A stretch of DNA of 64,000 bases, from NCBI RefSeq assembly GCF_026683955.1, contig NZ_CP113343.1:2728001-2792000 (forward strand). The letters are read 5' to 3'. Both the position numbers and the translations under genes were made by a program. The stretch's first letter is position 1. Each line of letters opens with the position of its first letter. Below the pieces are notes generated by a model. That model made no database searches, was not told where the DNA came from, and worked only from the letters and a program-made list of their open reading frames with translations. Origin of the DNA: Arthrobacter sp. MMS18-M83. Its GTDB lineage: Bacteria > Actinomycetota > Actinomycetes > Actinomycetales > Micrococcaceae. Below, one piece after another: positions 661 to 54,966 of the stretch.

Positions 661-773
661 CATATCTGCAGGAGCGTGGGGCGGGACGCTGCCATATGTG
701 AGCGGGCGTCAGATTGAAGGCCGTCATATCTGCAGGAGGGTCGGGAAAGGGGCCTTCATATGTGAGCGAGCGT
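661..773 (+). repeat. 32-base-period repeat array A (four units)
   Basis: Four similar words begin at 661, 693, 725 and 757, exactly 32 bases apart. Units 1 and 3 read CATATCTGCAGGAGCGT and CATATCTGCAGGAGGGT. Units 2 and 4 read CATATGTGAGCGGGCGT and CATATGTGAGCGAGCGT. The 15 bases between units are unrelated. The array lies in the 346-base gap between the methyltransferase start and the end of ptsH. The rest of that gap (774-931) shows nothing I can support. The same word family recurs near 7.1, 8.7 and 19.0 kb. Confidence 0.8.
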
Positions 774-931: not shown

Positions 932-960
932 CTGTGGCCGGCCCTTGCGGCCGGCCACAG
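932..960 (-). terminator. Terminator hairpin after ptsH
   Basis: A perfect 12-base inverted repeat (CTGTGGCCGGCC, loop CTTGC, and its complement) sits 24 bases beyond the leftward ptsH stop. There is no strong T-run, as is common in actinobacteria. Confidence 0.7.
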
Positions 961-5880: not shown

Positions 5881-7028
5881 TGAAGGCAGTCCATTTTGGG
5901 GCCGGGAACATCGGACGGGGATTCGTCGGCTTGCTGCTGCACGAGGCTGGATATGAGGTGGTCTTCGCCGATGTCGCGGACGCCTTGATCAGCCAGCTCG
6001 CCTCCGCATCCTCCTACGAGGTCCACGAGGTTGGCGAAAATGCAACAGTCAAGACCGTGTCCGGTTTCCGGGCCCTGAATTCGGGCTCTGAGGAGGCTGC
6101 CGTCGTCGCGGAAATCGCGACGGCGGACCTCGTCACCACGGCGGTTGGGCCGCACATCCTCAAGTTCGTGGCGCCAGTGATCGCGCGCGGCCTGGCTGGC
6201 CGGTCGCCGTCGCTGGCTCCGCTTCAGGTCATGGCCTGCGAGAACGCGATCAACGCGACCGACTTGCTGCAATCCGAAGTGCACGCCGCTTGGGACGGGG
6301 CCGCGGGTGACCTTTCCTCCGTGGCGGTGTTTGCCAACACTGCCGTGGACAGGATCGTCCCCAACCAGGCGCCCGGCCAAGGCCTGGACGTCACCGTGGA
6401 GACTTTCTACGAGTGGGTCATCGACCGGACCCCGTTCGCGGGTACGCCCCCGGTGATTCCGGGAGCGACCTTCGTGGACGAGCTTGGTCCGTATATCGAG
6501 CGCAAGCTGTTCACCGTCAACACCGGCCACGCCTCGGCAGCGTACTTCGGCTACGGCGTCGGCTTGGAGAAGATCTCCGAAGCCATGGCCGATGCCTCCG
6601 TAGCTTCACGAGTACGGGCCGTGTTGGAGGAAACCAAGCAGCTTCTCGTGGCCAAGCACGGCTTCGTCGAGGCCGAGCAGGAAGCGTACGTTCAGAAGAT
6701 CCTGTCCCGCTTCACCAACCCGTACCTGCCGGACACCGTGAACCGGGTAGGCCGTGCCCCGCTGCGCAAACTGGGCCGGCACGAACGGTTCATCGGCCCG
6801 GCCGCGGAGCTCGCCGAGCGCGGAGTCACCCCCGTTGCCTTGCTCGACGCGATGTCCGCCGCCCTTCGTTTCGACGACGGGGCAGACGACGAAGCCGTGG
6901 AGCTCACCCGGATGCTTTCCGAGATGGACGCCGCCGAGGCGGTTGAGCGCATTACCGATCTGCCGCCGACGCACCCGCTGTTCCCGCAGGTGCAGAAGCT
7001 GATCGAAGACCGCAAGGCCGAAGGCTAA
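5880..7028 (+). CDS. mtlD: Mannitol-1-phosphate 5-dehydrogenase
   Basis: This 382-residue enzyme oxidises mannitol 1-phosphate to fructose 6-phosphate with NAD+, feeding glycolysis. The GTG start shares its G with the last base of mtlA (TAGTG). The N-terminus [15 protein letters not shown] is the NAD-binding glycine motif. NTGHA and [14 protein letters not shown] are conserved family blocks of the C-terminal catalytic domain. Its place directly after the mannitol permease confirms the role. A very strong hairpin starts at the base after its stop. Confidence 0.95.
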
Positions 7029-7056
7029 ACCCGGGCCCGGCGAGCCGGGCCCGGGT
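7029..7056 (+). terminator. Terminator after mtlD
   Basis: A perfect 12-base stem (ACCCGGGCCCGG, loop CGAG) begins immediately after the mtlD TAA. It is almost entirely G and C and no T-run follows. Confidence 0.8.
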
Positions 7057-7094
7057 CCCTCCCCGGGGACGCTCCCCGGGGACCCTCCCCGGCG

Positions 7095-7253
7095 ATCCTC
7101 CTGCAGATCTGGCTCGCTTTTCCCGAACGCTCGCTCACCTTTAGGCTGCTTTCGGGCGATCCTCCTGCAGATCTGACGGCCAAAACGCTCACCCTCCTTC
7201 ACTTTTGATGTGCAGGAGGGTGAGCGTTTTGGGCCCCAAAGGTGAGCGAGCGT
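7095..7253. repeat. 32-base-period repeat array B (six units, two orientations)
   Basis: Read leftward, four 16-base units occupy 7095-7110, 7127-7142, 7159-7174 and 7191-7206: AAAAGTGAAGGAGGGT, AGATCTGCAGGAGGAT, AAAGGTGAGCGAGCGT and AGATCTGCAGGAGGAT again. Read rightward, two more units occupy 7206-7221 (TGATGTGCAGGAGGGT) and 7238-7253 (AAAGGTGAGCGAGCGT). Every step within an orientation is exactly 32 bases. The two blocks diverge from about 7206. The array fills the space between the convergent mtlD and MarR genes. Confidence 0.8.
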
Positions 7254-7256
7254 CGA

Positions 7257-7745
7257 TTAGCTGCCGAGTTCTTCCGACGCCGTTCGCCCGGCGGCCTGGA
7301 CGCGCCGCAGGAAGTCGGTAATGACGGCGATTTCGGCGTCGTCGTAGTCTGCACAGATGGTGTCCATGAGGCTGTTCATTCCCGCGTAGAGGCGGAACAT
7401 CTCGGCGTTTCTATCGGGAAGAACCCGGATTACCACGGCGCGCCGGTCGGAGGGATCGCGGTCCCGCGCAATCCAGCCTCTGCGTTCGAGCCGGTCGAGG
7501 ATGCCGGTCATGGTGGCTGGGTGCAGGCCGGCGTGTTTGGCCAGCGTGCTCGGGCTGAGCGGCCCCCGGTTCGAAATCAGGTCAAGACAATCAAGGTCAA
7601 CGTCCTTCAGCTCGGCTTGAGTGCCGACCTGGTGATTGAGCACCGATAGTTGCAGGCGTACGCCGCGAAGCTCGGCCTTGAGCTCAGCAACAGCACGCCG
7701 CCGAAGGCGGGGGGTTGGGGCTTCTTGATTTGATATTGAACTCAT
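7257..7745 (-). CDS. MarR-family transcriptional regulator
   Basis: The product has 162 residues with the MarR winged helix: LSPSTLAKHAGLHPATMTGILDRLERRGWIARDRDPSDRRAVVIRV at about residues 63-110 (recognition helix then the DR-x-D/R wing). The flanking helices would form the dimer. It is divergent from the NAD(P)-binding protein gene at 7806, with an AT-rich 60-base gap between them, the usual arrangement for autoregulation and control of the neighbour. The ligand is unknown. Confidence 0.85.
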   Translation of the reverse strand: MSSISNQEAPTPRLRRRAVAELKAELRGVRLQLSVLNHQVGTQAELKDVDLDCLDLISNRGPLSPSTLAKHAGLHPATMTGILDRLERRGWIARDRDPSDRRAVVIRVLPDRNAEMFRLYAGMNSLMDTICADYDDAEIAVITDFLRRVQAAGRTASEELGS

Positions 7746-8633: not shown

Positions 8634-8754
8634 ACGCTCTCTCACCTTGGCGGGAAGCACGAAACCTTCCTTCGCGATGTGAAGGAGGGTTGCGGTTTGG
8701 TCCCTCAAAGGTGAAGGAGGGTTGCGGTTTGGACCCCCAAAGGTGGAGGAGGGT
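8634..8754. repeat. 32-base-period repeat array C
   Basis: Three rightward units end at 8690, 8722 and 8754 (CGATGTGAAGGAGGGT, AAAGGTGAAGGAGGGT, AAAGGTGGAGGAGGGT), exactly 32 bases apart. The 16 bases after units 1 and 2 share TGCGGTTTGG. Two degenerate leftward units precede them (8634-8649, AAGGTGAGAGAGCGT-like, and 8664-8679), here 30 bases apart. The array occupies most of the 310-base gap between two rightward genes. Bases 8538-8633 hold no gene I can support. Confidence 0.7.
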
Positions 8755-17647: not shown

Positions 17648-18841
17648 GTGTCCGTCGAAACCATCACCCCTGAACAGAACCTGACTGCCCTGGCGCTGAG
17701 CGAAGAGGAAATCTTCGCGGCCCACGAAGGCGGCAAGCTCTCCGTTTCCAGCACCGTGCCGCTCTTGAACAAGCGTGACCTTTCCATTGCCTACACCCCC
17801 GGCGTCGCTGAGGTGAGCAGGGCGATTCACGCCAATCCGGAGCTTGCCCGCACGCACACGTGGGCCGAGCGCCTTGTGGTGGTCGTCAGCGATGGCACCG
17901 CGGTCCTTGGACTTGGCAACATCGGCCCCAGCGCCTCCCTCCCGGTCATGGAAGGAAAGTCCGCGCTTTTCAAGGCTTTCGGCGAGCTGGACTCGATTCC
18001 GCTGGTTCTCAACACCACTAACGTGGATGAGATCATCGAGACCCTGGTCCGCCTGCGCCCAAGCTTCGGTGCCGTGAACCTCGAGGACATCTCCGCTCCG
18101 CGCTGCTTCGAACTCGAAGAGCGTCTTATCGAGGCCCTTGACTGCCCGGTTATGCACGATGACCAGCATGGCACCGCCGTCGTGGTTCTCGCCGCCCTGA
18201 CGAACGCCGCCAAGGTGACCGGCCGCGAACTTGAAGGACTGAAGGTTGTGGTTTCCGGTGCAGGTGCCGCCGGGATCGCCGTGTCCGAGATCCTGCTCAC
18301 TGCTGGCGTCAAGGACGTCGTCCTGCTGGATTCCAAGGGCATCATCAACGCTGAGCGTGCCGATCTGGTGGCCGATTCGGGCAGCGTCAAGGCCCGCTTC
18401 GCCCAGCGGACCAACCCCCGCGGCCTTTCCGGCGGACCCGCCGAAGCCCTCACGGGCGCAGACGTGTTCGTCGGTGTTTCCTCGTCGAAGCTGGCCGAGG
18501 AACACCTGAAACTCATGAACAAGGATTCGATCGTGTTCGCGCTGTCCAACCCGGACCCGGAAGTTCTGCCCGAGGTCGCCGTCAAGTACGCGGCCGTTGT
18601 GGCTACGGGCCGTAGCGACTTCCCGAACCAGATCAACAACGTCCTGGCCTTCCCCGGGATCTTCCGCGGAGCCTTGGACGCCGGCGCGCGCCGGATCACT
18701 CCGGCCATGAAGCTCGCCGCGGCCCGCGCCATCGCCGCGCTGGCCGAAGAGGACCTCTCGGCCGACTACATCGTGCCCAGCCCGCTGGATCCCCGCGTTG
18801 CACCTGCGGTCACGGCGGCCGTTGCCGCTGCGGTTGAATAA
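17648..18841 (+). CDS. NAD(P)-dependent malic enzyme (bacterial short form)
   Basis: This 397-residue enzyme decarboxylates malate to pyruvate and CO2 with reduction of NAD(P)+, linking the TCA cycle to pyruvate. The GTG start has a strong GAGGAGA ribosome site at 17634. Motifs in order: LNKRDLSIAYTPGVAEVS, VVSDGTAVLGLGNIGPSAS, EDISAPRCFELEERL, MHDDQHGTAVVVLAAL and GAGAAGIAVSEIL (Rossmann glycines). The length fits the short malic enzymes without a phosphotransacetylase tail. The dre-like operator upstream hints that amino-sugar or PTS signals tune it. A hairpin follows the stop. Confidence 0.95.
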   Translation: MSVETITPEQNLTALALSEEEIFAAHEGGKLSVSSTVPLLNKRDLSIAYTPGVAEVSRAIHANPELARTHTWAERLVVVVSDGTAVLGLGNIGPSASLPVMEGKSALFKAFGELDSIPLVLNTTNVDEIIETLVRLRPSFGAVNLEDISAPRCFELEERLIEALDCPVMHDDQHGTAVVVLAALTNAAKVTGRELEGLKVVVSGAGAAGIAVSEILLTAGVKDVVLLDSKGIINAERADLVADSGSVKARFAQRTNPRGLSGGPAEALTGADVFVGVSSSKLAEEHLKLMNKDSIVFALSNPDPEVLPEVAVKYAAVVATGRSDFPNQINNVLAFPGIFRGALDAGARRITPAMKLAAARAIAALAEEDLSADYIVPSPLDPRVAPAVTAAVAAAVE

Positions 18842-18998: not shown

Positions 18999-19138
18999 AT
19001 ACGTGATGGAGCGTTGGGGGTTTGGGCCCGATAGGTGATGGAGCGTTTGCCTCGACCAACCCTCGCTCACCTTTAGCGCCTTTTTGACAGACCCTCCATC
19101 ACTTTTGGCGGCATTTTCGCCGACGCTCGCTCACGTCT
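18999..19138. repeat. 32-base-period repeat array D (five units, two orientations)
   Basis: Two rightward units end at 19014 (ATACGTGATGGAGCGT) and 19046 (ATAGGTGATGGAGCGT). Three leftward units occupy 19059-19074 (AAAGGTGAGCGAGGGT), 19091-19106 (AAAAGTGATGGAGGGT) and 19123-19138 (AGACGTGAGCGAGCGT). Steps within each orientation are exactly 32 bases, and the two blocks converge. The array fills much of the 400-base gap before the broken kinase gene. I see no gene in the remainder (18907-18998). Confidence 0.8.
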
Positions 19139-54864: not shown

Positions 54865-54877
54865 GGCTGGACGCAGC

Positions 54878-54966
54878 CCCAACTGACTCGCAGTAGCGGC
54901 CCCAACTGACTCGCAGTAGGTGTCGTTATGAGCCGTCAAAACGACAACAAATGCGAGTTAGTTGGG
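54878..54966. repeat. Long palindromic repeat element, copy 3, with duplicated left arm
   Basis: The word CCCAACTGACTCGCAGTAG occurs at 54878 and again at 54901 (23-base step). The second copy pairs with the right arm 54940-54966, which reads AACGACAACAAATGCGAG then TTAGTTGGG. The left arm differs from copies 1 and 2 in five central bases, so this copy is partly degenerate. Confidence 0.8.

Follow-up and report, generated by a model that had tools for sequence, protein, structure and literature searches.

The window analysed here, a stretch of 64,000 nucleotides (G000:C1:2728001-2792000) from the 5.1-Mb genome (G000) of an apparently Arthrobacter-type actinobacterium, carries four arrays in which a 12-base core word, STGVNSGAGSGT, returns at steps of exactly 32 bases. 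They are best explained as rows of double-stranded protein-binding sites acting in chromosome topology or organisation, like the BIME-2/gyrase sites, a reading that we hold tentatively and with somewhat less than even confidence.

The exact step in array A and the presence of three further arrays built by the same rule, both announced by the earlier note, were borne out (Table 1). The longer 16-base words of array A, CATATCTGCAGGAGCGT, CATATGTGAGCGGGCGT, CATATCTGCAGGAGGGT and CATATGTGAGCGAGCGT, start at 661, 693, 725 and 757, respectively, and its core word at 698 reads GTGAGCGGGCGT. Array A is flanked by the 5' part of one minus-strand gene, whose start codon is near 637, and by a second minus-strand gene (984-1262), which we take to be HPr-type, in part from its position beside a PTS enzyme I-type gene; 211 nt separate the stop codon of the latter from the 3' end of the array A word. 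The hairpin behind this gene did not pass the terminator count of the T-tail scan. On the left, a minus-strand frame (2-727) is open through part of array A up to an ATG at 727, and the start near 637 is the likelier one, judging from a Shine-Dalgarno-like sequence. Array B is set between converging genes, a mannitol-dehydrogenase gene (plus, ending at 7028) and a MarR-family gene (7257-7745, minus), and is adjoined by a 13-base tandem repeat, GGGACCCTCCCCG (7036-7101), which holds word-like pieces. A minus-strand word with one mismatch (8634-8645) precedes array C. In array D, placed between a malic-enzyme gene (plus, ending at 18841, with its own terminator-like hairpin) and a histidine-kinase-type gene, the arms are reversed, the 3' ends of the words pointing inward. 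Elsewhere in the window a perfect 23-base tandem duplication, GCCCCAACTGACTCGCAGTAGCG, was noticed at 54876-54919.

Table 1. Arrays and associated hairpin in the window (mm, mismatch to the core word)
Feature	Position	Strand	Details
Array A	666..773	+	words at 666, 698 (1 mm), 730, 762; step 32
Hairpin	932..960	-	perfect 12 bp, 5-base loop; after the HPr-type gene, between gene and array A
Array B	7095..7253	both	minus words at 7095 (1 mm), 7127, 7159 (1 mm), 7191; plus words at 7210, 7242
Array C	8679..8754	+	words at 8679, 8711, 8743; near-identical spacers
Array D	19003..19134	both	plus words at 19003, 19035; minus words at 19059, 19091, 19123

In the whole genome, 120 same-strand pairs of STGVNSGAGSGT were found at exactly 32 bases (48 forward and 72 reverse), compared with 0 + 0 for the reversed control pattern. 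The random genome-wide spacing that the earlier note had set against its own claim did not occur. In the named loci of 8 kb, same-strand words were most often 32 bases apart (234 pairs), followed by 64 (84) and 96 (32), with 5 pairs at 31 and 7 at 33. Since these loci had been picked by the 32-base pattern, the spacing is tested only beyond the array ends. There, 61 degenerate words (1-2 mismatches) were found at offset 32, whereas no other offset between 14 and 50 had more than 5 (4 at 31 and 3 at 33); over all 37 offsets, 133 words were observed compared with 64 in the shuffled control. In 85 middle words whose letters the search pattern did not dictate, positions 7-9, 11 and 12 were 96-98% fixed, and an A at unit position 31 carried 1.5 bits. 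Part of the regularity within arrays is the product of tandem duplication, because in 58 of 93 pairs of successive spacers the identity is 75% or higher. Among the seven least similar spacer pairs (<50%), both steps were 32 in five. That selection acts on the word and its three-turn spacing, as proposed earlier, is still the best reading, given the words beyond the array ends and a head-to-head gap on the same lattice, although tandem duplication softens it. The alternation of two word types held for some arrays and was often absent, many arrays in the G000 search keeping a single type. A long single-strand array in another genome (G031:C171:25985-26828) alternates GAGGGT and GAGCGT words and thus forms a 64-base higher-order repeat.

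CRISPR loci have a conserved repeat of about 23-47 nt and unique spacers. In the arrays about 12 of 32 positions are fixed and the spacers are often near copies; this short conserved part and the two-armed layout agree with the earlier statement that the arrays are unlike CRISPR.

Two features extend beyond what had been noticed before, namely that many arrays consist of two head-to-head arms and that they are oriented relative to genes. For neighbouring divergent arms, the head-to-head gap was 5+32k bases in 17 of 35 pairs when members were chosen by same-strand spacing alone, and in 36 of 54 when the choice was not so restricted. Convergent arm pairs were only seven and showed no single phase. 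The spacers, described earlier as unrelated, proved to be alike in composition rather than in sequence, and neighbouring spacers of array C are near copies. In 131 non-redundant units the AT fraction was 0.71-0.77 at positions 19-21 and 0.66-0.98 at positions 29-31, compared with 0.11-0.27 at positions 23-27. The AT counts of positions 19-21 and 24-26 had means of 2.24 and 0.39, respectively (n=131, p 1e-21), and the AT phase was present in each of three word groups. Taken with the fixed A at position 8, these patches would, on our reading, place AT roughly every 10-11 bp, about one helical turn.

It was also considered whether the arrays act at the end of transcription or in 3'-UTR RNA, as terminators, Rho sites or mRNA stabilisers. 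Their fixed orientation near stop codons would agree with this, and two-armed arrays can fold strongly: the z-scores of the two strands were -9.8 and -11.4 for array B and -5.0 and -2.5 for array D. The one-armed arrays A and C folded no better than shuffles on either strand, and a hairpin with a T tract formed by the array itself was not found. No Rfam family reached its gathering score in the window, so that confinement to four copies within annotated RNA genes, the other outcome named in advance as adverse, did not occur. No compensatory pairs were seen by eye among the strongest column correlations listed, which linked the same column one unit away or neighbours. Moreover, all 14 rRNA flanks that bear an array have a strong hairpin ahead of it, no more than 60 nt from the 5S gene and mostly with just a short T tract, and locus D, the place of array D, is arranged likewise. 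An RNA element is thus improbable. Words on the same face, phased AT, a preferred head-to-head gap and the lack of a general RNA signal together argue that the arrays work as double-stranded DNA, to which a polarity-sensitive protein would bind.

Placement was evaluated with genes called by a home-made GC3 rule, leaving out of the named-locus statistics L031, L038, L068, L083, L088 and L090, which are single matches outside Arthrobacter-type genera. Less than 10% of the sequence was coding in 102 of 114 arrays and more than 50% in 8, the intergenic share of the loci being 15%. Converging genes flanked 40 of 103 intergenic arrays and 46 of 229 array-free gaps of at least 100 nt. The outer word faced a stop codon with its 3' end in 119 cases (median distance 26 nt) and with its 5' end in 36 (median 132 nt); facing a gene start, the numbers were 52 and 41, respectively. 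Codon bias was tried as a stand-in for expression level, eleven frames of the ribosomal-protein cluster serving as reference, and was set aside, being only marginally higher in stop-facing genes (p 0.04). No recurring gene was obvious near the arrays in the 25 widest clusters listed, among 789 predicted proteins of the named loci. In two diverged species, a DUF559-type gene has arrays to its left and right (L192 1423-2397, with a Pfam match, and L194 1838-2794).

The association with rRNA operons was determined on a set of 30 matches, which is not every rRNA operon. Two partial matches of 37 nt were left out, and of the remaining 28, two without 5S and two with less than 60 nt downstream were removed, leaving 24. 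An array was present within 700 nt downstream in 14 of these 24 operons (one mismatch allowed), whereas among random 700-nt windows of G128 an array was present in 6 of 252 origin-side ones and in 0 of 252 terminus-side ones. In the six genomes that have 28 strict pairs or more (G000, G012, G128, G071, G035 and G066), a class set after the result was seen, the figure was 12 of 13 operons; in G004, G006 and G087, with no strict pairs, it was 2 of 8. Two arrays of G000 start 80 nt past the 5S rRNA. Two G000 loci had at first sight resembled arrays around a 1.6-kb cargo, as transposon ends would; both are rRNA-operon flanks, one with an integrase-like insertion, taken by eye for an IS, and the idea was dropped. 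In L189 (2919-4410), an insertion with integrase-like frames, read by eye as an IS, separates two array arms behind an rRNA operon.

The preferred reading, sites for a topology-related protein, would work as follows. A putative protein would read [GC]TGANSGAG[CG]GT, with an A at the second base before the word. The 32-bp step, equal to three helical turns, would align all words on one side of the helix, and the AT patches, spaced by about a turn, might let the array bend or wrap. Situated 3' of genes and rRNA operons, beyond terminator-like hairpins and mostly on the origin side, the rows could then serve as sinks or barriers for positive supercoils pushed downstream by transcription. Protein binding, its cooperativity and the topological role are what we infer from geometry and location. 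Because they lie past the hairpins of rRNA operons, the arrays match the sites of transcription-driven positive supercoils and of gyrase accumulation in E. coli. According to the excerpts of PMC6379681, gyrase cleavage sites of E. coli pile up downstream of rRNA operons and in BIME-2 elements, which are strong, transcription-independent gyrase sites, and the GC period of the gyrase motif is 10.75 bp. Several observations count against this explanation. Gyrase is conserved, yet the arrays are patchy within the genus; G060, with 23 strict pairs, had an array after 0 of 3 rRNA operons tested; and among the matches listed (to ~3.4 Mb), strict pairs adjoin only 2 of the 5 rRNA operons of G000. The marginal codon bias, the 52 cases of a 3' end facing a gene start and the reversed arms of array D point the same way.

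Position on the replication map was determined for 66 independent loci in three complete chromosomes (G128, G012 and G071), using exact genome lengths and dnaA as origin; G000, whose array list reaches only ~3.4 Mb, stands outside these statistics. From dnaA to the terminus, the quarters held 25, 29, 10 and 2 loci. The distribution was 11/14/2/0 in G128 (Rayleigh p 9e-4), 11/9/4/1 in G012 (p 2e-3) and 3/6/4/1 in G071, which is not significant alone (p 0.15). In G128, stop-bearing gaps of at least 80 nt were as frequent on one side as on the other, at 48 and 47 per 180 kb. This scarcity near the terminus could be attributed to a role as origin-domain or nucleoid-occlusion sites, on which a dedicated protein, a functional counterpart of Noc or SlmA and not necessarily a relative, would load and thereby tie division or domain organisation to the origin-side nucleoid, the placement behind genes being merely harmless. 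In the excerpts of PMC3116907, the Ter macrodomain is free of SlmA sites and terC free of Noc sites. The strict pattern gave about 14-27 separated loci per genome, and Noc and SlmA sites likewise number tens per chromosome (PMC3116907, in part); the SlmA site also starts with GTGA. As the same excerpts describe them, however, those sites are short palindromes and the SlmA ones are mainly in coding DNA, whereas the arrays are intergenic direct repeats. Neither the rRNA-operon association nor the stop-facing orientation is predicted by such a role, and the terminus side may simply be younger DNA. On balance, nucleoid-occlusion sites are a rather unlikely explanation taken alone; this role and a topological one could also go together.

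Of 121 genomes of the genus, 49 contain the stricter word pair, and copy numbers per genome range from 0 to 253. The figure of 49 is a lower bound, because an rRNA operon of G006, a genome that lacks strict matches, is followed by a GGG-type array. The first pattern was absent from 22 other genomes of the order. Organism names covered 80 of the 118 stretches listed, L111-L148 lying outside that set, and 74 of the 80 were Arthrobacter, Pseudarthrobacter or Paenarthrobacter. Seven stretches from viral contigs also matched.

Orthologous arrays occupy locus D in six other species (G128, G066, G012, G072, G064 and G086). Across them the word is kept, while the copy number has changed and the spacers are different and locally homogenised; in G112 the word there is a variant. 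For G075 and G100, the stretches examined have a different flank and no array at this place. In 20 further loci (L168-L187), no array was detected by an 8-base match at 32 or 64, apart from one chance-like hit in L187, and several hold a GGGGTCAC...GTGACCCC palindrome instead. Arrays also flank the same DUF559-type gene, paired by eye, in G128 and G071, with differing words. The idea of strictly genome-specific word dialects was weakened, since one genome can hold several word types and arrays are internally homogenised.

Such turnover resembles that of bacterial minisatellites (VNTR), which share tandem copies, copy-number change and local homogenisation. Accordingly, the arrays might be a neutral or selfish 32-bp unit that spreads, is homogenised by slippage and gene conversion and is tolerated in old intergenic backbone, the word being kept by descent only. 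The many near-identical spacers are in line with this, as are the G031 array, which repeats its unit over 27 steps, and the difference from 0 to 253 copies between species of one genus. A neutral satellite would account for the homogenised arrays, though not for the conserved word, the arm phase or the AT phase: at locus D the word stays while spacers are replaced, and AT phase is retained despite the change of spacer sequence. In contrast to VNTR, spacers diverge and word and step remain. The enrichment after rRNA operons also speaks against it, as does the rarity of RAYT (PF01797), which is absent from 120 of the 121 genus genomes, G000 included. RAYT is the usual mobiliser of REPs, and a RAYT-mobilised REP was rejected for the same reason. 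A neutral satellite therefore seems doubtful as the whole explanation, while deserving to be kept in mind.

A second interspersed element, GGGGTCAC-N35-GTGACCCC, was encountered in G000 (9 copies) and in 64 of the 121 genomes of the genus, with up to 56 copies and 0 in the control. It often takes the form GGGGTCACTTACGGCCCAT...ATGGGCCGTAAGTGACCCC with a variable centre, and it sits at the locus D orthologue in, for example, L174, L182 and L183. None of the 13 copies in G087 falls between about 1.6 and 3.8 Mb of its 5.3 Mb. Like the arrays, it has a half-word starting with GTGA, a fixed spacing and, in some species, the place of locus D; unlike them, it is a single palindrome with 35 bases between the half-words and no tandem array.

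A further candidate was a genus word for recognising kin DNA, such as the DUS/USS of naturally competent bacteria. The array unit resembles the Haemophilus USS in having a short conserved core and AT patches a turn apart, with variants between species. However, uptake words are scattered single copies, and over-represented copies of that kind were not found in the window, where 15 of the 19 exact word matches are array members. This makes an uptake role very improbable.

By analogy, BIME-2 elements would be the functionally closest known system. Like the REP/BIME-2 sequences of E. coli, in which gyrase and IHF sites occur, the arrays have many intergenic copies, regularly spaced in mosaics of both orientations near gene 3' ends (PMC6379681, PMC2817692, both in part). 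Their AT/GC phase is near 10.7 bp, as in the gyrase motif described in the excerpts of PMC6379681. The unit differs in being a non-palindromic 12-base word in mainly direct repeat at 32, and a gyrase role of the arrays would be transferred by analogy. Because a palindromic hairpin unit was looked for and not found, the word being non-palindromic and arrays A and C folding like shuffles, and because RAYT was missing from all but one of the genus genomes, the arrays represent a variant of interspersed mosaic DNA and not BIME. REP counts for Arthrobacter livingstonensis appear in a RepRanger table, in the portion of PMC12306157 at hand, and do not imply overlap with these arrays. Keywords and the exact strings GTGAGCGAGCGT (unrelated matches) and GGGGTCACTTACGG (no match) retrieved no account of the arrays from the open-licence PMC literature.

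On a bolder and less likely reading, though a possible one, the arrays would be the landing platform of a putative actinobacterial chromosome-organising protein. It would oligomerise on same-face words three turns apart, reverse polarity at a short dyad and mark the origin-side, rRNA-operon-bearing nucleoid, as a counterpart of Noc/SlmA or of BIME-2/gyrase on direct-repeat DNA. As interspersed DNA the arrays make up a genus-wide class, and a protein lattice is predicted from their geometry alone. If they are bound, they would offer natural arrays of varied length beside rRNA operons, in which supercoil insulation or the marking of nucleoid domains could be studied outside the E. coli and Bacillus models.
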